From: a virus
IMG/VR virus record: IMGVR_UViG_3300024243_000103
Location: 1-20,211 of that record
Direction: 5' to 3' (one strand)
Length of the DNA stretch: 20,211 bases
Below are positions 531 to 16,378 of this stretch, one piece after another. Each line of letters starts with the position of its first letter. The first letter of the stretch is position 1. The notes below the pieces were generated by a model that saw only the letters and a list, made by a program, of their open reading frames with translations, made no database searches and had not been told where the DNA came from. Both the position numbers and the translations under genes were made by a program.

Positions 531-1163
531 ATGGCTCAGTTTGGTTGGGCATACGTCAATTGTAACGATTCTAATCTTGGTGCCAATATGGGCGTCAGGT
601 ATGTTTCTGGTTCTGCCGTAACTGCATCGTCTACTTTCATTTATGATGTAGACAATAACAAAGTTACCCTAGACGGAGACATCGAGATCAACGGCACTGT
701 AACTGCTAGTTTCTTTGTTATTGATCACACAGAAGTCCTATCTGGCTCTACCATTTTTGGTAACACAACTGATGACACCCACCAAATAACTGGCTCCTTG
801 TTTGTTGGAGCCTCCGCTAGTGCTCCTGTCTTTAGGGTTGACCCCTACACAAGCCAGTCGGTTACGACAGGTTTTAGAGTGGCTTATCAGTCGGTTACGG
901 CATCTGGTGTCACATCATCAAACTCTAACTACATTATTGGAATAGGTGGCAGCACTACTCTGGAGTTTAGAGTTCATTCAGCCTCAGTGGCTGGTGCCGG
1001 CGGAATTCTGTTAGTGAAAGATGAATCAACTTCTCGATCGGGTCCAATCACCCTCTCGGCCTCCAGCGGAGATACAATTGATGGTGCCACATCTTATGAG
1101 ATTTCTGGCTCTAGCCCTGCTATCTCGCTTTACTCCAACGGCTCAAATTGGTTTGTATTCTAA
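531..1163 (+). CDS. modular tail-fibre-like protein (210 aa)
   Basis: This beta-rich protein has three recognisable blocks. The first is a strand-turn-strand unit around residues 30-60 (STFIYDVDNNKVTLDG). The second, around 63-90, reads VIDHTEV then GSTIFGNTTDD and is shared with the 401-aa protein downstream. The third is a C-terminal domain from about 128 to the end, with NYIIG, KDES, an ITLSASSGDTIDG stretch and the terminal NGSNWFVF. The third block is a common phage fibre-type ending and recurs in three more genes here. Translation is probably coupled to the preceding gene: the ATG follows TGA-TAG directly, and only a weak G-rich site lies upstream. Role: virion fibre, spike or whisker part; which organelle it belongs to cannot be told. 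Confidence 0.65.
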   Translation: MAQFGWAYVNCNDSNLGANMGVRYVSGSAVTASSTFIYDVDNNKVTLDGDIEINGTVTASFFVIDHTEVLSGSTIFGNTTDDTHQITGSLFVGASASAPVFRVDPYTSQSVTTGFRVAYQSVTASGVTSSNSNYIIGIGGSTTLEFRVHSASVAGAGGILLVKDESTSRSGPITLSASSGDTIDGATSYEISGSSPAISLYSNGSNWFVF

Positions 1164-2446: not shown

Positions 2447-2472
2447 CTTACGACATTATAGGAGGATTTTAT

Positions 2473-4392
2473 ATGTCTAATTACGTTCCCGCAAAGGGTA
2501 CTCAGGATCCACTCTGGAAGGGTGGTGGTCTTGAGGTTTCTGGTTCAGGCGTCTTGCGCGTTTCTGGTACTGGTACAAATGGTGAGGATATCCATCAGGA
2601 TTTCCAAGATCACCTTGGAATTACTTCCGTCGAGACTCGTCTCTCTCTAGCAGAGGATGAGGAAGCTGCCGATATGGTGTCTCTCGACACCCGCATCTCT
2701 ACTCTAGATTCAGAGCAGGATGCCGATCAGGCTTCTCTTGATCTTCGCGTTTCTAACGAAGAAGATAACCGCGAGGCGGCTGATGGTTCTCTCACAACTC
2801 GCCTAAGCTCTGAAGAGTCTAAGCTTGTTGCCGAGATGGCTTCTAACGATTTAGCCCACGGCTCTCTAGAGACCAAGATCTCTGTAGACGTTTCTGCTGC
2901 TAACGCATCTGTTGACCTTCGCGTCAGCAACGAAGAAGATAACCGCGCTGCTGCCGACACTTCTCTCGAAACACGTCTTTCTGAGGAAGAGTCACTAGCT
3001 CTAGCTGAGTTCGCTTCTGTTGATCTCCGCGTTTCTGCACTTGACTCTGAGCAAGATGCTGAAATGGGCTCTATGGAGACTCGCGTCTCTAACGAAGAAG
3101 ATAACCGCGCTGCTGCAATCACAGCCGAAGCTTCTAGTCGCCTTTCTGGTGATGTTTCTCTCGCAGCTAACCTCTCTTCTGAGCTTGTTGACCGCGCCGA
3201 TGCCGACACTTCTCTCACCACACGTCTAGCTGCTGAAGAGGGTGTTCGTTCTGCTGCTGATTCAACTCTCACAGCCAACCTCTCTTCTGAGCTTGTTAAC
3301 CGTGCCGCTGCTGATGGTTCTCTAGAGCTTCGTCTAAGCCAAGAAGAGTCTCTCGCTCTCGCTGAGTTTGGCTCTGTTGACGTTCGCGTCGCTGCTGAAG
3401 AGGGTGCTCGTGCAACTGCCGACACTTCTCTAGAGACTCGCTTCTCTGCTGCCGATTCTGCCGAAGCTTCTAGCCGCGTCTCTGCGGACGACGCCCTAGT
3501 CGTCAAGATTGAAGCTGATGACTCTACTGTAGCTTCTGTCCGCGATTCGGCTGATGCCTCTATCGTAGTCAAGATGGATGCTGACGTTTCATCTGAAGCC
3601 TCTTCTCGTGTTGCTGCCGACGCTTCTCTCACAACCCGCTTGGGTGTTGAAGAGGGTGCTCGCGGCACCGCTGACACATCTCTACAGACTCGCTTCTCTG
3701 ATGCTGACTCTGTTGAGGCTTCTGTCCGCGCTTCTGCTGACGCTTCTATCGTCTCTATGCACGATGCTGATGAGGCTTCTATCAACACTCGCATTGGTAA
3801 CGAAGAGGGTGCTCGCGCAACTGCCGACGCTTCTCTCGCAGTCGTTGATGGCTCTATTGAGACCCGCTTGGGTGTTGAGGAGACTGCTCGTAGCTCTGCT
3901 GATGCTTCTCTACAGACTCGTTTCTCTGATGCCGATTCTGTTGAGCTAGCTCTTCGCGAGTCTGTTGACGGTTCACTTGAGACCCGAGTAATTGCTGAGG
4001 AAACTGCTCGTGGCTCTATAGACACCCTACTAAGCGCAGGAATCTCTTCTGAGGCTTCTAGCCGCGTCTCTGGTGATGATTCACTCGATAGCCGCATCAC
4101 TGATGTTGTTGCTGAGATGAAGGACATTGCTCGCATCGGTGGTAAGACTCTTACCTCTTCTGATGAGCATCACATTGTCGCTAACGCAGATGCCCAGACC
4201 TTCACTCTACCTGCTGCTCCAAACGAGGGTGACTTCTGGTTCATCAAGAACTACAACGGTGTTGACGCTACCTGTATCGTCGCTGGTAACGGCAAGACGA
4301 TTGATGGTCAGTCCAGCATCACACTAGACGTTCCAAACGCTGCTATCAAGGTCGTTTACGATTCTACAATGGGTGGCTGGTTCATCTTCTGA
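2473..4392 (+). CDS. long coiled-coil stalk fibre protein with beta C-terminal cap (639 aa)
   Basis: Three parts are visible. Residues 1-51 form a Gly/Ser-rich head (with LWKGGGLEVSGSGVL), probably the virion-attachment end. Residues 52 to about 553 are a long helical stalk of repeated units such as SLETRLSEEESLALAEFA, nearly all 18 or 22 residues. The last 85 residues or so form the beta cap shared with three other genes here (TFTLPAAP, GKTIDGQSS, terminal GGWFIF). The RBS ATAGGAGG (2458-2465) is strong and almost matches that of the capsid gene. TGA is followed in frame by TAA, then a terminator. The likely role is a long homotrimeric tail fibre or whisker; in T4 fibrous proteins such stalks carry a tip that binds a receptor or partner. 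The function here is inferred from architecture. Confidence 0.75.
   Translation: MSNYVPAKGTQDPLWKGGGLEVSGSGVLRVSGTGTNGEDIHQDFQDHLGITSVETRLSLAEDEEAADMVSLDTRISTLDSEQDADQASLDLRVSNEEDNREAADGSLTTRLSSEESKLVAEMASNDLAHGSLETKISVDVSAANASVDLRVSNEEDNRAAADTSLETRLSEEESLALAEFASVDLRVSALDSEQDAEMGSMETRVSNEEDNRAAAITAEASSRLSGDVSLAANLSSELVDRADADTSLTTRLAAEEGVRSAADSTLTANLSSELVNRAAADGSLELRLSQEESLALAEFGSVDVRVAAEEGARATADTSLETRFSAADSAEASSRVSADDALVVKIEADDSTVASVRDSADASIVVKMDADVSSEASSRVAADASLTTRLGVEEGARGTADTSLQTRFSDADSVEASVRASADASIVSMHDADEASINTRIGNEEGARATADASLAVVDGSIETRLGVEETARSSADASLQTRFSDADSVELALRESVDGSLETRVIAEETARGSIDTLLSAGISSEASSRVSGDDSLDSRITDVVAEMKDIARIGGKTLTSSDEHHIVANADAQTFTLPAAPNEGDFWFIKNYNGVDATCIVAGNGKTIDGQSSITLDVPNAAIKVVYDSTMGGWFIF
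2626..4134 (+). repeat. about 500-residue stalk of 18- and 22-residue helical units
   Basis: Units begin with S-hydrophobic-x-x-R/K-hydrophobic-S and continue with EE/AD-rich segments. Reading from residue 52, unit lengths are mostly 18 or 22, with a few of 11 or 7; two irregular stretches (7+15 and 21+8) also add up to 22 and 29. Some DNA stays near-identical: AACGAAGAAGATAACCGC occurs at 2755, 2929 and 3091, spaced 174 and 162 nt, which are whole codon multiples. Confidence 0.85.
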
Positions 4393-4412: not shown

Positions 4413-4450
4413 AAGGGGGCACCTCTTCGGGGGTGCCCCCTTTTCATTTT
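4413..4450 (+). terminator. strong rho-independent terminator after the stalk-fibre gene
   Basis: GGGGGCACC (4415-4423) pairs with GGTGCCCCC (4432-4440), and flanking A/T pairs can extend the stem. TTTTCATTTT follows. It begins about 20 nt after the tandem stop of the fibre gene. Confidence 0.9.
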
Positions 4451-4475
4451 GTTAGTTCTCAAACGGATTCGTGCT

Positions 4476-4484
4476 ACTATTTAC
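4476..4484 (+). promoter_or_regulatory. candidate late promoter, ACTATTTAC
   Basis: CTATTTA at 4477-4483 lies just after the terminator and 27 nt before the glycosyltransferase ATG (4511). A gene behind a strong terminator needs its own promoter, which supports the reading. Confidence 0.55.
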
Positions 4485-4510
4485 GAGTGCTTACATTGGA
4501 GAACAAAAGA

Positions 4511-5614
4511 ATGAAAATAAGCAAGAATGTTAAGATTGGAATCACAACCAAATGTGATGAGAATTTATTTGGTAATGGACTGAACCAGAACGTCTGGTTC
4601 CTCTACAGACTATTGCAGGGTGCCGGTTATGATGTAAACTTGGTGTCCGAGTCAAGCAAACATCACGGCAAGAAGTTAATAACCCAAGACATCCTGCCCT
4701 TAACTGCTGAGAGCATCAAAGATTACGACATGATTATGGAGTGCGCCTTTGCTCTTGAGAATAACACGGCAGATGCTCTTCTTGAGAGTGGCGGTGTAAG
4801 AATCGGAATCCAGTACGGCAACCGCCTCCTAATTGATCTTGAGAGTATGCTATTCAAACCAAAGAACGCTGGAATCGGCAAGAAAGACATTCACGAAATC
4901 TGGTGCTCTCCACATTTTGAGTTCTCAATTCCAGCGTTGGAGATTCTAGAAAAAACAGAGATGCATGTGTGTCCCTATGTTTGGAGCCCTGACGTTGTTA
5001 CTCACACCTACATAAACCACAAAGTTGATCCGTTCTTCAAGCCTTCAACCAACATAAATAACATCTCTTTCTTTGAGCCCAACCTCAACATCGTAAAGTC
5101 TTGCATGATTCCTTGCATCATAGCTGAAGACCTTTACAACAGAAAGCCAGAGTTGATAAACGACATCTACAACTTTGGGTCTCTCAAACTCGCAGAGCAC
5201 AAAACCTTCCTCTCGATGGTAAGTAAATTAAACATCAAGAGAGATAAGAAGATCTCTTTTGAAGGTCGCTATAAGTTGGTCTGGGCTCTGCATAAGCAGT
5301 TTGCAGGAACAATCGTCAGTCATCACTGGATGAATGGATTGAATTACTTACAACTTGAGGCTATGTACTTTGGAACACCCATCGTCCACAACTCCGAGTT
5401 CTTCAAAGAGCACGGCTACTACTATCCAGAGTGGGATGCTAAAGAGGGTTCTCGACAGCTACAGCGTGCGATCGAGACGCACAAGGAAACCTACCTCAGT
5501 CAGCGAGAGAGAGATAGAGAAAAGCTATGGGAGTTTCACCCCGACAATCCCAAGAACATCCAGGGCTATGTTGATCTAATTGAGAATGCTCTTGCGAAGC
5601 ATTTGAAGAAATAA
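4511..5614 (+). CDS. DUF2827-type glycosyltransferase (367 aa)
   Basis: The protein looks like a GT-B-type glycosyltransferase of the DUF2827 family. The N-terminal half opens with a Rossmann-like strand (VKIGITT, 7-13) and the family-typical GNGLNQN (21-27), followed by YRLLQGAGYDVNLV. The C-terminal half has SHHWMNGLNYLQLEAMYFGT (from about 269), PIVHN, GYYYPEWDA and a helical end with NPKNIQGYVDLI. Glu/Asp positions after HHW and in YYPEWDA are candidates for nucleotide-sugar contact; this is family inference. I chose ATG 4511 because GGAGAA (4498-4503) stands at good spacing. A longer reading from GTG 4433 would begin inside the terminator. It is flanked by fibre genes and has its own candidate promoter. 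It may glycosylate a virion protein or alter the host surface; the target cannot be seen. Confidence 0.8.
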   Translation: MKISKNVKIGITTKCDENLFGNGLNQNVWFLYRLLQGAGYDVNLVSESSKHHGKKLITQDILPLTAESIKDYDMIMECAFALENNTADALLESGGVRIGIQYGNRLLIDLESMLFKPKNAGIGKKDIHEIWCSPHFEFSIPALEILEKTEMHVCPYVWSPDVVTHTYINHKVDPFFKPSTNINNISFFEPNLNIVKSCMIPCIIAEDLYNRKPELINDIYNFGSLKLAEHKTFLSMVSKLNIKRDKKISFEGRYKLVWALHKQFAGTIVSHHWMNGLNYLQLEAMYFGTPIVHNSEFFKEHGYYYPEWDAKEGSRQLQRAIETHKETYLSQRERDREKLWEFHPDNPKNIQGYVDLIENALAKHLKK

Positions 5615-5650: not shown

Positions 5651-6748
5651 ATGGCTTATAACATTTTAAAAGACGATGTTGAATTTAGTGGCGTAAATCT
5701 CGGAAACATCGAGGACATGATAAACGATCACGCTGATCAGACAGTCGGAGGCACCAAGACATTCTCCAACATGGTCACAGCTTCAGCCGGCATGTCTGCC
5801 TCTGTTTATTACGGAGACGGAACCAACTTGTCGGGAATCAGCGCTTCTCCCGGCGGTGCCGATGGGTCAGTGCAATTCAACACCTCAAGCACCCTAGGTG
5901 GTAATGGAAATTTTACCTATGACGGCACAAATGTAACAATCGTGGGCGCACTATCTGCTTCCTTCCTTTCAGGTTCGGGACAGAACATCTACAACCTGAC
6001 TCCCGCTAACATTAACGGAACCCTAAACGCAAGTCAAATAAACCTTGGTCAAGGGCTAGAGGATGACTCTAATAACATAAGAGTGAAATTAGATAGTGAC
6101 CCAGGACTCTCCAGAGCCAACTCAGGAATTAAGGTTGCTGCCTCTGGTCTTGCAGATGCAGGAGCCTTGAATAATACTGACTTATTCATAGTCGATCAGA
6201 GCGGCAACAAGAAAGCCACCGCCCTACAAATTTATAATTACATTGATGGAAAGATTACAATTCCAGTAGTGGCTGGAGCCGATGAACAGATTCAGTTTAA
6301 CGATTCTGGCGATCTCGGAGCTTCTTCTAATTTAACTTTTAATTCTACCACCAACACATTAACAACAACGCAAATTTCAGCATCGTCTCATGTTTCATCG
6401 TCAATTTATTACGGTAGTGGGCTAGGCTTAACTGGTGTAAGCAAGATCGGCTTTAATTCCTTTACAGCTAGTTTTAATGTAACCCCACAACAGAGCATTG
6501 CTGCGATTAGCACATCTGGCTCTGTCGTCACAGCATCTCTGAGTGCAGCTAGCAATTATGACGTAGCACAAGCCATTACGTTCAAGGACATAGCAGGAAG
6601 CGCTTCAGCCAACAATCTTGTTATAGAACCATCTGGATCTCAAACAATCGATGGAAGCAACAATGGAGTCAAGATAGAATTAGATTATGGCTCGGTAACA
6701 ATCGCTTCAGATGGCGTGTCCTCCTTTTACATAATAGGGACAAACTAA
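5651..6748 (+). CDS. modular tail-fibre-like protein (365 aa)
   Basis: The N-terminus MAYN matches the 401-aa fibre protein. Residues 16-45 (NLGNIEDMINDHADQTVGGT, then KTFSN) resemble attachment regions of T4-like fibre proteins. Two copies of a YYG-x-G-x-x-L-x-G motif (about 54-63 and 256-265) are typical fibre repeats, as are the SVQFN and QIQFNDSGDLGASSN blocks. The C-terminal domain (about 285-365) again has PSGSQTIDGSNNG and a final aromatic strand, but ends FYIIGTN instead of WFIF. RBS: AAAAAGGA (5638-5645). The stop TAA overlaps the next ATG by one base (TAATG), so the two are translationally coupled. It is a structural fibre or short-fibre component; the exact organelle is unknown. 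Confidence 0.7.
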   Translation: MAYNILKDDVEFSGVNLGNIEDMINDHADQTVGGTKTFSNMVTASAGMSASVYYGDGTNLSGISASPGGADGSVQFNTSSTLGGNGNFTYDGTNVTIVGALSASFLSGSGQNIYNLTPANINGTLNASQINLGQGLEDDSNNIRVKLDSDPGLSRANSGIKVAASGLADAGALNNTDLFIVDQSGNKKATALQIYNYIDGKITIPVVAGADEQIQFNDSGDLGASSNLTFNSTTNTLTTTQISASSHVSSSIYYGSGLGLTGVSKIGFNSFTASFNVTPQQSIAAISTSGSVVTASLSAASNYDVAQAITFKDIAGSASANNLVIEPSGSQTIDGSNNGVKIELDYGSVTIASDGVSSFYIIGTN

Positions 6749-8996: not shown

Positions 8997-10757
8997 ATGT
9001 CTAGTATTGTACAAAGACTCACCGAGGGTGTAGTCAACCGTGATATGCGTGCCGAGTCCCACGCTCTTCTATCTAAGTGGAAGAAAACTGGTCTTCTAGA
9101 GGGCATCGAGACTGAGCGCAAGCAAAACTCTATGGCTCGTCTACTTGAGAACCAAGCCAAGGAGCTTCTCCGTGAGGCTAACACCATGGCTGGTGGTGAT
9201 GTCGAAGGCTTTGCTGCCGTCGCCTTCCCGATCGTTCGCCGCGTCTTCGCTGGTCTTATCGCCAACGATCTCGTCAGCGTTCAGCCCATGAGCCTCCCCT
9301 CTGGTCTCATCTTCTTCCTCGACTTCACCTTCTCTGGTGATCTTGGAAACGGAACCCCCCAGACCGATCGCTTCGGCAACATCCCCGGTGATTCTATCTA
9401 CGGCACCGACCGAGTTGGTTCACAGATCACTGGTGGCGTCAACCTAGTTGGCGCGCAGGGTCAGGATCTATCTGGTCCTCGCTCTTCTGCTCGTGGTTAT
9501 GCTTACGCAAGCCCCACTGCTTCTGTTACTACTACTGCCGCCACTATTGAAGCCGAGTTCGACCTTGATGGTTCAGAAACCAATGCTCAGCTAAAGCTCA
9601 TTGATTTCGATCCTGATCTTCTTGCTCTTTCTGGTTCTGGCTTCAAGGCACTCGTTATTGATGCCCAGAAAAGTGACTACACCGCCGCTCTATCAGACTT
9701 CAACAACCTGTCTGCTTTTGAGATTGGTGGTGCTGCTCTAAACACTGCCCTTTCTGGTGCGGCTGGTACTGACACCGATTCTACCTACACCCTGGTTCGT
9801 CGTCTAACCAGTGTTGTAGGATCTGATGTTCGCTACGTCGTCACTGCTCTATCTTCTGCGGTTGGTGATGTTACTAGAAACGGCAACCTTGTTGCTCAAG
9901 TCCCGCAGCGCGACCAGTTCGAAGAAGGCACTGGTCTTGGTTCTATCGCTGGTGGTAATGTTGGTTGGGGTCTCGAAGGCAACGCCGACATCCCCGAGAT
10001 CGACATCAAGGTTGACTCTATTGCTGTCACAGCGCAGACCAAGAAGCTCAAGGCTAAGTGGACCCCCGAACTCGGTCAGGACCTCAACGCCTACCACAAC
10101 CTCGACGCCGAGGTTGAGCTTACCAGTCTTCTCTCTGAGCAGATTGCTCTTGAGATCGACCGTGAGATCCTCGCTGACCTCGTAAACGGTGCCACCGCTG
10201 GCACTCGCTACTGGTCACGCGCTCCGGGTCTCTTCGTTGACTCTAACGGTAACGAAATCGGTGCTTCTACTAAGGCTCCCGACTTCACCGGCACCGTCAG
10301 CGAGTGGTACGAGACTCTCGTCGAGACAGTAAACGACGTGTCTGCTCAGATCCATCGCAAGACTCTCCGTGGTGGTGCTAACTTCGTGGTCTGCGGACCC
10401 GAGGTTGCCAACATCCTTGAGTTCACCGCTGGCTTCCGTGCCTCTGTAACTCACGACGATGAGAAGGGCTCTATCGGCGCTCTCAAGGTCGGTTCACTAA
10501 GCAAGAAGTTTGATGTCATCGTTGACCCCTACTTCCTCCGCAACGTGATTCTAATCGGTCGCCGTGGTTCTAGCTTCCTAGAGTCTGGTTATGTCTACGC
10601 ACCTTACGTGCCGCTACAGACCACTCCCACCATCTTTGGACCGGAAGACTTCGTTCCGCGTAAGGGTGTTATGACCCGCTACGCGAAGCAGATGGTCCGT
10701 CCAGATATGTACGGTCTAGTTGTCGTCCGTGGTCTCCTAGGTGAGTCTGGCGCTTGA
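8997..10757 (+). CDS. major capsid protein, gp23-like (586 aa)
   Basis: This is the HK97-fold shell protein of T4-type phages. Signature stretches are KKTGLLEGIE and MARLLENQAKELL (29-58, in the likely cleaved N-terminal region), FPIVRRVFAGLIANDLVSVQ (about 76-95), and QTKKLKAKWTPELGQDLNAY then LDAEVELTSLLSEQIALEID (about 345-390). L-x-E sites near residues 34 and 50 may be prohead protease cuts. T4 gp23 is 521 residues; the extra length lies mainly in a weakly conserved middle part (about 150-320). Codon use is strongly biased to C-ending codons, more than in most neighbours, as expected for the most abundant protein. RBS AAGGAGG lies 12-13 nt before the ATG. TGA is followed by TAG, then a strong terminator. 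Confidence 0.95.
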   Translation: MSSIVQRLTEGVVNRDMRAESHALLSKWKKTGLLEGIETERKQNSMARLLENQAKELLREANTMAGGDVEGFAAVAFPIVRRVFAGLIANDLVSVQPMSLPSGLIFFLDFTFSGDLGNGTPQTDRFGNIPGDSIYGTDRVGSQITGGVNLVGAQGQDLSGPRSSARGYAYASPTASVTTTAATIEAEFDLDGSETNAQLKLIDFDPDLLALSGSGFKALVIDAQKSDYTAALSDFNNLSAFEIGGAALNTALSGAAGTDTDSTYTLVRRLTSVVGSDVRYVVTALSSAVGDVTRNGNLVAQVPQRDQFEEGTGLGSIAGGNVGWGLEGNADIPEIDIKVDSIAVTAQTKKLKAKWTPELGQDLNAYHNLDAEVELTSLLSEQIALEIDREILADLVNGATAGTRYWSRAPGLFVDSNGNEIGASTKAPDFTGTVSEWYETLVETVNDVSAQIHRKTLRGGANFVVCGPEVANILEFTAGFRASVTHDDEKGSIGALKVGSLSKKFDVIVDPYFLRNVILIGRRGSSFLESGYVYAPYVPLQTTPTIFGPEDFVPRKGVMTRYAKQMVRPDMYGLVVVRGLLGESGA

Positions 10758-13594: not shown

Positions 13595-16378
13595 ATGTCA
13601 GTTAAAAGCTTTAAGTTTGTGTCCCCAGGTGTGTTTATCAACGAGATTGATAACTCTTTCCACCCACGTAGACCAGACGCCATCGGTCCAGTAATCATCG
13701 GGCGCGCAGCAAAAGGTCCAGCAATGCAGCCTATTAAGGTTGAATCATACTCCGACTTTGTTCAGGTTTTTGGCGGCACGGTTGCCGGAAATGCTGGTGG
13801 TGATGTTTATCGTGATGGTAATTACCAGACCCCCATGTATGGCACTTATGCCGCCAAGGCGTTCTTGAATTCCAATGTTGCTCCACTAACTTACATTCGT
13901 TTGCTCGGTCAACAGAACACTAATGCTGTCGAAGCTGGGTATGCCGGTTGGGAGACTACCAAGAATCCTGCTGCTGCAATTGCAGACAATGGCGGTGCTT
14001 ATGGGCTATGGCTATTTGAAAGCTCATCTGCCGCAAATCTTGGAACAGGCACTTTGGCTGCTGTTTGGTACATCGATAGTGGCTCACAGGTTCTACTTTC
14101 AGGAACTTATGCTAATAGTACAGCAACTGCTGCCAAGGTTGGAGCTTTTTTTGAACCAGATAGCAGCAACAACTACACCGTAGAAATAACCGAATCTGCT
14201 GGGGGTTCTAACAAATACACCTTCAACTTCGCTTCTTCTGAAGATAAATTTATTCGCAAGGTGTTTAACACTAACCCGCTTCTAGGAAATACTAATGCTA
14301 GCGACTTCTATTCAGCCGCCTCGGAAGAAGCCTATTGGCTTGGAGAGTCTTTTGAGCAAGAAGTTGGAAACCTTTCTTACACCGTAGCCGCCTCATTGGG
14401 AATTATTCTCCCAATTGCTAAGAGTACTCTTGTAAGTGAAGGCCCTCAATCAAGCCGCGAAGGCTTGCGCGAAGCTGGTACTGGCTGGATTGTCGGTCAG
14501 GATCTTGGCGCTGCGGGCTCTTACGTTGCCTCAGCAGCACAGAAATTATTTCGCCTTGTTGGTCGCAAGCACGGAGAGTGGCTAAACAAGAACACCAAGG
14601 TTTCTATCGAAAGAATCAAACCCTCTACTACTAACACTTCTGATTATGGTTCTTTTTCGGTAGTAGTCAGAGCGCTAAGAGATACAGATAATAAGGTCGT
14701 TGTTATTGAGCGTTTTGATAATCTAAACCTAAACCCAACTTCCGAAAACTTTATTGCTAGAGTAATCGGTGATGTGACTACCGAATGGAATTCAACCGAA
14801 AGAACTATAAGAAGTTATGGAGAATACCCAAATAATTCTAAATTATTCTATGTTGAGATGGAAGATGAAGCTTACGCTGGACTATTAAATGCCAAGTATT
14901 TACCGTTTGGCTACCACGGTCCCAATGCCTACTCAACCGTCGCTAATGTTAAGGCTACTGGATTCACCGGAACTGCAACAGACTTCGTAGTTACTAGTAG
15001 TGTTTTTGGTAGCGCCGCCACTCTTCTTTCCGATGGAGCAGTCGGCAGGACTGGCTCCTTTGGCTTCCCATCGACTAGACTTCGCGCTAGTTCTTCTGAT
15101 GGGGGCTTATTTAATGAGAAGAACGCTTACTTCGGAATGCAAACAACCAGAACTCCAACTAGCACAGTACCAGACGGTTCTGCTGCCGCCCCACATCGCT
15201 ACTGGCCTTCCGCTACAACACCAGCTTACTACTTTACCATGGATGATCTACAGGTTGATTCAACCGGCACAGCAGTTTATGTTCAGGGCTCTCGTGTAGC
15301 GGGCACAAGTCGTACTGCCACTAGTGGTTCAGGGCATCTATTAGAAGATGATTCCTACAACCGTTTCACTGCTCCAGTTTGGGGCGGCTTTGATGGTGTG
15401 AATATATTGAAGCCAGACCCGTTCTATAACGACGGAATGAGCAGCGCAACTGAACTAACAAACTACGCCTACAACACTTACAAGCAGGCAATCGATACGG
15501 TCGCAGACCCAGACTTATTAGACATGAATCTACTATCTGCTCCCGGTCTAACTAATACTGGTCTAACCACGATGATGATTGAAGCTTGTGAAGACCGCGC
15601 AGATGCCCTCGCGCTAATCGATCTTCCTAATGTCTACAAGCCAGTAGCGGAAGGTATCGCTACTAGGACTGCCCGCGTAGTAGGCAACGCCACTACCTCA
15701 GCCATAGCACTCCGCACACGACAGATTGATTCATCCTACGGTGCTACATTCTTCCCATGGGTACAAACTCTTGATGAGAGAACTGGACAACTTCTTTGGG
15801 TTCCCCCCACCGTTGCTATGATGGGCGTTATGGCTTCATCTGAGAGATCCGCACAGGTCTGGTTCGCTCCAGCCGGATTTAACAGAGGTGGGCTTTCTGA
15901 TGGTGCTGCGGGTATTCCAATCTCGAATGTTAGCCAGCGTCTCTCCTCTAAAGAAAGAGACACCCTCTACGATGCTCGCATCAACCCAATTGCTAGCTTC
16001 CCAAGCTCCGGCATCGTGGTGTTCGGTCAGAAGACTCTACAAGAGCGTCCATCTGCCCTAGACCGCATCAATGTGCGTCGTCTAGTCATCTACCTCAAGA
16101 AGCAAATTTCCATCCTATCTACACAGATTCTCTTCGAGCAGAATGTGCAGGCAACTTGGAACCGCTTCAAGGGTCTAGTCGAGCCATTCCTAGCCAACGT
16201 CAAGGTTCAGTTCGGTATCTCTGATTACCGCCTCATCCTCGACGAGAGCACAACAACCCCTGACCTAGTTGATCAGAACATCATGTATGCCAAGATCATG
16301 GTCAAGCCAGCACGCGCCATCGAATACATCGCAATTGATTTTGTGGTAGCTTCTACCGGCGCATCATTCGACGATTGA
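13595..16378 (+). CDS. tail sheath protein, gp18-like, enlarged (927 aa)
   Basis: Sheath subunits form the contractile outer cylinder. The N-terminus (FVSPGVFINEIDNSF, 8-22, then GPVIIGRAAKGPA) and the C-terminal domain (about 700-927: WVPPTVAMMGVMASSER, WFAPAGFNRGG, RINPIASFPSSGIVVFGQKT, ATWNRFKGLVEPFLANVK, final KPARAIEYIAIDFVVA) are typical of the family. T4 gp18 is 659 residues, so about 270 extra residues lie in the N-terminal and middle part, where the family's protruding outer domains vary. The segment around 115-330 is Ser/Ala/Asn-rich and looks like an added surface domain. RBS: GAGAGG, about 12 nt before ATG. TGA is followed by TAA, then a GC hairpin. Codon bias is mixed, stronger in the C-terminal part. 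Confidence 0.95.
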   Translation: MSVKSFKFVSPGVFINEIDNSFHPRRPDAIGPVIIGRAAKGPAMQPIKVESYSDFVQVFGGTVAGNAGGDVYRDGNYQTPMYGTYAAKAFLNSNVAPLTYIRLLGQQNTNAVEAGYAGWETTKNPAAAIADNGGAYGLWLFESSSAANLGTGTLAAVWYIDSGSQVLLSGTYANSTATAAKVGAFFEPDSSNNYTVEITESAGGSNKYTFNFASSEDKFIRKVFNTNPLLGNTNASDFYSAASEEAYWLGESFEQEVGNLSYTVAASLGIILPIAKSTLVSEGPQSSREGLREAGTGWIVGQDLGAAGSYVASAAQKLFRLVGRKHGEWLNKNTKVSIERIKPSTTNTSDYGSFSVVVRALRDTDNKVVVIERFDNLNLNPTSENFIARVIGDVTTEWNSTERTIRSYGEYPNNSKLFYVEMEDEAYAGLLNAKYLPFGYHGPNAYSTVANVKATGFTGTATDFVVTSSVFGSAATLLSDGAVGRTGSFGFPSTRLRASSSDGGLFNEKNAYFGMQTTRTPTSTVPDGSAAAPHRYWPSATTPAYYFTMDDLQVDSTGTAVYVQGSRVAGTSRTATSGSGHLLEDDSYNRFTAPVWGGFDGVNILKPDPFYNDGMSSATELTNYAYNTYKQAIDTVADPDLLDMNLLSAPGLTNTGLTTMMIEACEDRADALALIDLPNVYKPVAEGIATRTARVVGNATTSAIALRTRQIDSSYGATFFPWVQTLDERTGQLLWVPPTVAMMGVMASSERSAQVWFAPAGFNRGGLSDGAAGIPISNVSQRLSSKERDTLYDARINPIASFPSSGIVVFGQKTLQERPSALDRINVRRLVIYLKKQISILSTQILFEQNVQATWNRFKGLVEPFLANVKVQFGISDYRLILDESTTTPDLVDQNIMYAKIMVKPARAIEYIAIDFVVASTGASFDD

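Follow-up and report, generated by a model that had tools for sequence, protein, structure and literature searches.

How can a phage fibre change the length of its stalk and still keep its helices in register? This question is raised by a fibre gene in a virus record of approximately 20 kb (IMG/VR record IMGVR_UViG_3300024243_000103, positions 1 to 20,211). The whole 20,211-nucleotide stretch that we analysed is called the window.

A fibre gene in a putative T4-like phage

The window contains genes for a gp23-type capsid protein (8997-10757) and a tail sheath (13595-16378), both with strong PHROG matches, and the source is predicted to be a T4-like, contractile-tailed phage. Among cultured phages, the capsid has its best-covered match in Microcystis phage Mel-JY01, with 37.5% identity over 97%; Rhodothermus phage RM378 comes next, ahead of the Flavobacterium immuto phages. 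The fibre ORF (Table 1) sits in a block of fibre-like genes, and in the contig L009 a prohead protease (Peptidase_S77, gp21-like) is encoded upstream of the fibre-like block. The fibre is thus encoded among virion structural genes, with capsid and sheath in the window and the protease in L009.

Table 1. Features of the fibre locus in the window
Feature	Position	Strand	Basis or remark
Ribosome-binding site AGGAGG	2460..2465	+	Upstream of ATG at 2473; direct sequence reading
Fibre gene, 639 aa	2473..4392	+	ORF list; six IMG/VR contigs carry full-length relatives
Conserved N-terminal head, residues 1-51	2473..2625	+	93-100% protein identity in four relatives, 77% in L016; stalk variable
Helical stalk, residues 52-546, mostly 18-residue units	2626..4110	+	Spacings; period 3.62; AlphaFold2 helices 62-340, 352-527
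15-residue unit SLETKISVDVSAANA, residues 131-145	2863..2907	+	Not a sum of 7 and 11; shared with L002, L003 (twice), L016
Predicted helix break, residues 341-351, low confidence	3493..3525	+	AlphaFold2
C-terminal beta domain, residues 550-639	4120..4389	+	Alignment; model; fold matches to CBA120 TSP4, T4 gp9
DUF2827 gene, conserved neighbour outside the fibre	4433..5614	+	Pfam E 4.6e-73; 78-97% DNA identity among relatives

Three other genes of the window (531-1163, 1179-2384, and 5651-6748) encode fibre-like proteins with a C-terminal domain that can be aligned to that of the repeat fibre, suggesting that one tip or trimer-forming domain may be common to several fibres of this phage. A small gene at 72-527 has conserved ends and a middle that has diverged between relatives; with BLAST, only approximately the first 83-89 or the last 93-151 bases match in most of them. 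By its sequence this may be a second fast-changing structural gene. In all relatives whose contigs reach far enough, the DUF2827 gene lies 3' of the fibre. The unrelated L028 carries a pair of DUF2827 genes next to its two fibres with 18-residue units. We take DUF2827 to be glycosyltransferase-like, and a link to glycosylation of the fibre is possible. A general partnership of DUF2827 with fibres of this type was rejected because L041, L042, L044, L045, and L046 carry DUF2827 but no 18-residue fibre in the fetched flank.

The fibre itself gave a best Pfam E-value of 0.042, which does not reach that family's cut-off, and no significant PHROG profile match, the best (E 0.0089) being to a family of unknown function. 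INPHARED yielded no relatives at E 1e-5. With the limit relaxed to E 1, the search returned assorted proteins, mostly fibres, at approximately 26-39% identity and with matches of the stalk type only. These matches, including one to a T4-type fibritin (E 0.5), were not counted as homology. A sequence search of solved structures returned no match and Foldseek with the whole fibre returned no meaningful match. Thus, the fibre lies outside the named Pfam and PHROG families and has no INPHARED match at the thresholds used.

Relatives with full or nearly full genes were obtained from IMG/VR scans (L001, L002, L003, L005, L006, and L016; L004 encodes the same protein as L003). Together with the window gene these make up the seven genes used below for statistics on stalk units and period. 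Fragmentary relatives are present in L007, L013, and L026, and the dominant unit in the relative L037 is 25 residues long. L007 and L013 come from one sample (3300011258), and both contigs end within the fibre gene, one with its 5' part and the other with its 3' end. Such breaks are as expected if repeats defeat assembly, and short reads may give biased stalk lengths.

Predicted structure of the fibre

Residues 1-51 are the probable attachment end of the fibre. The stalk begins where the initial annotation of this DNA had placed it, at nucleotide 2626 (residue 52), and the repeats reach to approximately residue 546 (nucleotide 4110). A single-sequence AlphaFold2 model of the monomer (mean pLDDT 60.8, pTM 0.21), which is uninformative on oligomers, contains helices at residues 62-340 and 352-527 followed by a beta C-terminus. 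Most helix blocks have a pLDDT of approximately 65-76, so a long alpha-helical stalk is predicted with modest confidence. The initial annotation had proposed a helical rather than a beta-helical stalk and had named fold prediction as the check on it; the two long helices bear this out, and a beta-helical stalk was rejected because AlphaFold2 predicts none.

The C-terminal domain was modelled from 15 rows, with a pLDDT of approximately 77-88 over the beta part. Fold matches (VIA) were to CBA120 TSP4 (Z 10.6), T4 gp9 (Z 9.5), and a T4 baseplate chain (Z 9.3), and Foldseek comparison of the domain with TSP4 chains gave E-values of 3e-4 to 2e-3. The baseplate chain is 602 residues long and is presumably gp10. 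The domain thus shares the beta fold of the TSP4/gp9/gp10 type. CBA120 TSP4, T4 gp9, and T4 gp10 are homotrimers, and analogy with these relatives in fold suggests that the fibre studied here may be a trimer too.

The stalk repeats with a nearly straight helical period

In the window fibre an anchor, S-[LIVM]-x-x-R-[LV], recurs from residue 52 on. Its spacings are 18 (13 times), 22 (five times), 25 (twice), and 29, 33, 14, and 15 (once each), and a spacing of 18 accounts for 13 of the 24 window spacings and for 90 of 161 across the seven genes. Protein self-identity of the window fibre peaks at lags of 18, 36, and 54 (z approximately 9-11), with further peaks at lags of 22, 40, 58, and 76. The stripe formed by hydrophobic residues (VILMFYW) in the window stalk has a period of 3.62 residues with a power of 23.3, compared with a shuffle maximum of 9.4. 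Over all seven genes this period is 3.605-3.63, inside the tested range of 3.5-3.8, and the power is 17.6-42.2 versus shuffle maxima of 8.3-10.5. The spacings, the self-identity peaks, and the power of the 3.62 stripe show that the repeat is real and far above shuffled controls. A repeat of 18 residues at approximately 3.6 residues per turn is that of an 18/5 coiled coil. The undistorted helix has 3.63 residues per turn (PMC4786415) and the periods of the seven genes therefore support the near-straight periodicity that had been claimed for this stalk.

The stalk had also been described as a series of near-identical 54-nt units. This is wrong for the window gene, in which the 18-residue units average 51% DNA identity (best pair 81%, adjacent maximum 59%). 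We found no exact internal repeat of at least 30 nt in this gene, and TRF detected no tandem array in it. These results rule out near-identical tandem DNA units in the window gene, the units of which are old or are not linked by recent duplication.

Unit chemistry and oligomeric state

The 18-residue units comprise 71 distinct sequences. All of them have aliphatic residues at positions 2 and 6, and 67 have R at position 5; an acidic residue likewise occupies position 10 in 67. R or K at position 5 is combined with D or E at position 10 at 19 of 25 anchors. The distance from R5 to the acid at position 10 equals that between g and e in the R-hxxhE trimer motif (PMC3653964), an indirect hint at a trimer. 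The strict motif does not occur in the window stalk because position 9 is usually E, and its relaxed form occurs six times. Approximately three of the five layers in each unit are polar or small, which is unusual for a classical coiled coil, and the window stalk is very acidic, with a net charge of -66 over 496 residues.

Such chemistry could also be that of a dimer or of single, highly charged helices in which the repeat serves mainly as a spacer. Besides the charge, this reading draws on there being two of approximately five layers that are strictly hydrophobic and on a monomer model that is a plain helix. We consider it unlikely, since the aliphatic stripe stays phase-locked over approximately 500 residues and every unit has aliphatic residues at positions 2 and 6, features that a lone helix would not need. 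In addition, K is rare in the stalk, unlike in typical single alpha-helices, and the C-terminal domain has a fold of a class generally known as homotrimeric. We infer that the stalk is a trimer, and a straight one.

Length changes follow whole helical turns

The initial annotation held that all units are sums of 7 and 11 residues. This fails at a 15-residue unit, SLETKISVDVSAANA, that the window shares with three relatives, so that units of this type are present in four genes. It vanishes as an exception only if merged with the neighbouring unit (25+15=40). Lumping of this kind is weak evidence because sums of 7 and 11 make up 49% of the integers 10-44 and every integer of at least 60, the largest integer that is not such a sum being 59. 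Moreover, relatives show net differences of 3, 4, and 15 residues, and indels that are not sums of 7 and 11 are what the initial annotation had said would speak against its rule.

The 161 unit spacings of the seven genes take only the values 11, 14, 15, 18, 22, 25, 29, 33, 36, 40, 43, 51, 55, and 62. Among the 140 distinct units of these genes, those no longer than 44 residues have 11 lengths only (11, 14, 15, 18, 22, 25, 29, 33, 36, 40, and 43), and all 11 are within 0.14 turn of a whole number of turns at 3.62 residues per turn. No heptad-only sum of at least 21 (21, 28, 35, or 42) occurs among the 161 spacings, and the sums of 7 and 11 that go unused (21, 28, 32, 35, 39, 42, and 44) are mostly lengths that drift off phase. 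For distinct unit lengths alone, the 7/11 rule has a p of approximately 0.004. The whole-turn rule gives a circular concentration of 0.93 for 136 distinct units (null maximum 0.27) and of 0.85 over the 11 distinct lengths (null maximum 0.71).

We also compared shared blocks, either between two relatives or between two parts of one gene. Their net length differences were 3, 4, 7, 11, 14, 15, 18, 22, 25, 29, 32, 36, 40, 43, and 47 residues, all within 0.17 turn of whole turns at 3.6. This comparison is independent of the anchor pattern but uses the same sequences; the unit and indel tests share sequences and homologs and are thus not independent of each other. We excluded big cumulative offsets, for example the 30 residues that separate the window from L003, because the hendecad excess accumulates and large numbers become uninformative.

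Thus, the rule that holds is one of whole alpha-helical turns at approximately 3.6 residues per turn, and 7 and 11 are two instances of it. Based on the unit lengths, the indels, and the phase concentration, we dropped the strict 7/11 rule in its favour. The claim that every change keeps a coiled-coil register does not stand in its strict 7/11 form, and survives in whole-turn form because 3, 4, and 15 are the sizes of a stammer, a stutter, and a pentadecad, which coiled coils tolerate.

Stalk turnover and probable recombination

Fibre length does evolve, as had been suggested. Stalks are 475 (L001), 488 (L016), 496 (window), 539 (L002), 617 (L003), and 840 residues long (L005 and L006), which corresponds to 71-126 nm if the helix is continuous. 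The window and L002 have near-identical flanks and different stalks. Nucleotide identity between them is 100% at the fibre N-terminus, 97.5% at the C-terminus, and 96.6% in the DUF2827 gene, whereas the stalks differ by 43 residues and are reshuffled. Only the first part of the two stalks is collinear, and exact blocks are found at offsets of 0, -90, -69, -138, and finally +43 residues. The fibre genes of L001 and L005 share 247 nt exactly at positions that are 151 residues apart.

The genes of L005 and L006 are equal in length and differ at 67 of 2,949 bases. These differences are clustered, with a fraction of 0.55 of neighbouring differences lying within 9 nt compared with a maximum of 0.38 in a codon-position-matched null, and they are not dominated by changes at A. 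One tract of L006 is identical to L001. The non-collinear blocks, the 247-nt sharing, and the clustered tracts fit the exchange of short blocks between phages, and much of the stalk change looks like such exchange. In L005 and L006, where the fibre gene runs from 4001, the differences between single-unit tracts resemble gene conversion and leave the length unchanged.

Internal duplication is seen in relatives. There are 54-nt arrays at 78-87% match in L005, and exact internal copies of 57 and 59 nt in L002 and of 53 nt in L016. Recombination between near-identical 54-nt units, as initially proposed, is unsupported in the window gene, where the units have diverged in DNA and from which the recent repeats of the relatives are absent. 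In its strict version, that proposal allows only 7- and 11-residue elements, gained and lost as near-identical 54-nt units of one gene undergo unequal crossing-over. The arrays and exact repeats of the relatives speak for it, as does the fact that 132 of the 136 distinct units no longer than 44 residues are sums of 7 and 11. We nevertheless judge it very unlikely given the 15-residue unit in four genes, the indels of 3, 4, and 15 residues, the diverged units of the window gene with no exact 30-nt repeat, and the replacement of tracts between L005 and L006 without a change in length.

The same tract replacement, the non-collinear block exchange, and the numerous unit types could instead reflect selection on the surface of the units, with their changing residues making receptor or host contacts along the shaft and length change being a by-product of block exchange. 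By contrast, 48 of the 67 differences between L005 and L006 are at third codon positions, and the binding site of phage fibres is usually at the C-terminal tip. Selection on the unit surface is therefore an unlikely explanation.

A model for stalk evolution

It is probable that the gene encodes the fibre of a T4-like phage with a conserved head, a helical coiled-coil stalk, and a beta domain, in which units of whole turns are resized and reshuffled by recombination. According to this model, an N-terminal attachment head would be followed by a long coiled-coil stalk, which at 0.15 nm per residue would measure approximately 74 nm as a continuous helix, and by a C-terminal beta domain. Each 18-residue unit would form five helical turns with aliphatic layers at positions 2 and 6, R5 paired with the acid at position 10, and the other layers small or polar, and its period would match a nearly straight bundle. 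The other unit lengths, 14, 15, 22, 25, 29, and 33 residues, would likewise span near-whole turns. Because of this, units could be added, lost, or swapped with the hydrophobic stripe remaining on one face. The stalk would be resized and reshuffled by recombination among relatives and, occasionally, by duplication within the gene, while its ends and the neighbouring genes stay fixed, and selection on helix phase would filter the length changes that survive. We infer such selection on helix phase, and a role of the fibre in receptor binding or as a support fibre.

A broader and more tentative idea is that helix pitch may act as a grammar for recombination, with whole-turn units moving as cassettes between lineages and fibre length and surface evolving fast, decoupled from the conserved head and tip. 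Alongside this we note that the same SLxTRVSxEExxRxxAD-like 18-mer is present in unrelated fibres of the uncultured viral contigs L027 and L028, the latter with two such fibres. These resemble the window fibre in the 18-mer and differ from it in N- and C-terminal domains and in gene neighbourhood. The natural length series with conserved ends, from 475 through 488, 496, 539, and 617 to 840 residues, offers a test of fibre length evolution and of whether helix pitch limits the insertions that survive. This set of relatives displays the whole-turn rule unusually clearly. The surprise is moderate, since the principle (stutters, 18/5 periodicity, reshuffled stalks) is already established.

Comparison with known systems

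The C-terminal fold is shared with a domain of CBA120 TSP4, T4 gp9, and T4 gp10 (Z 9.3-10.6, 13-22% identity), but this domain lies at approximately residues 29-175 in those chains, close to the N-terminus or the middle, and at the C-terminal end of a helical stalk here. The 18/5 coiled coils combine 7+7+4 residues over five turns (two heptads and a stutter), and 11/3 and 15/4 are also accessible (PMC4786415). All three periodicities are used in the present fibres. The paper treats them as resulting from insertions into heptad coiled coils, with delocalised stutters (PMC4786415), whereas here 18-residue units dominate stalks of 475-840 residues.

The PCoil domains of collagen-like fibres from E. 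coli prophages form trimeric helical stalks with lengths that differ by multiples of 7 (PMC3368898). They resemble the window fibre in being alpha-helical coiled-coil stalks of variable length in a phage fibre, and for PCoil the trimer has been demonstrated. By contrast, Leu and Ile are nearly absent from PCoil, whereas positions 2 and 6 are always aliphatic in the window fibre family. Length steps in PCoil are multiples of 7, while units and indels here are mainly 18, 22, 25, 29, and 36 residues (the indels mostly 18, 36, 43, 22, and 25) and do not follow that pattern.

Trimeric autotransporter adhesins of the BadA type also combine conserved ends with a repetitive stalk of variable length that is reshuffled, and recombination has been proposed for them (PMC8859334). 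Unlike the window fibre, they are bacterial and membrane-anchored, with stalk domains of 68-147 aa (PMC8859334). No Pfam match to a C-terminal YadA-type membrane anchor was found in the fibre at E<0.1, and its C-terminus is modelled as a phage-like beta domain. Thus, the architecture is of a known kind, that of a phage fibre stalk formed by an alpha-helical coiled coil with mainly 18/5 periodicity. What is new here is the whole-turn rule, together with the natural length series and the evidence for block exchange.
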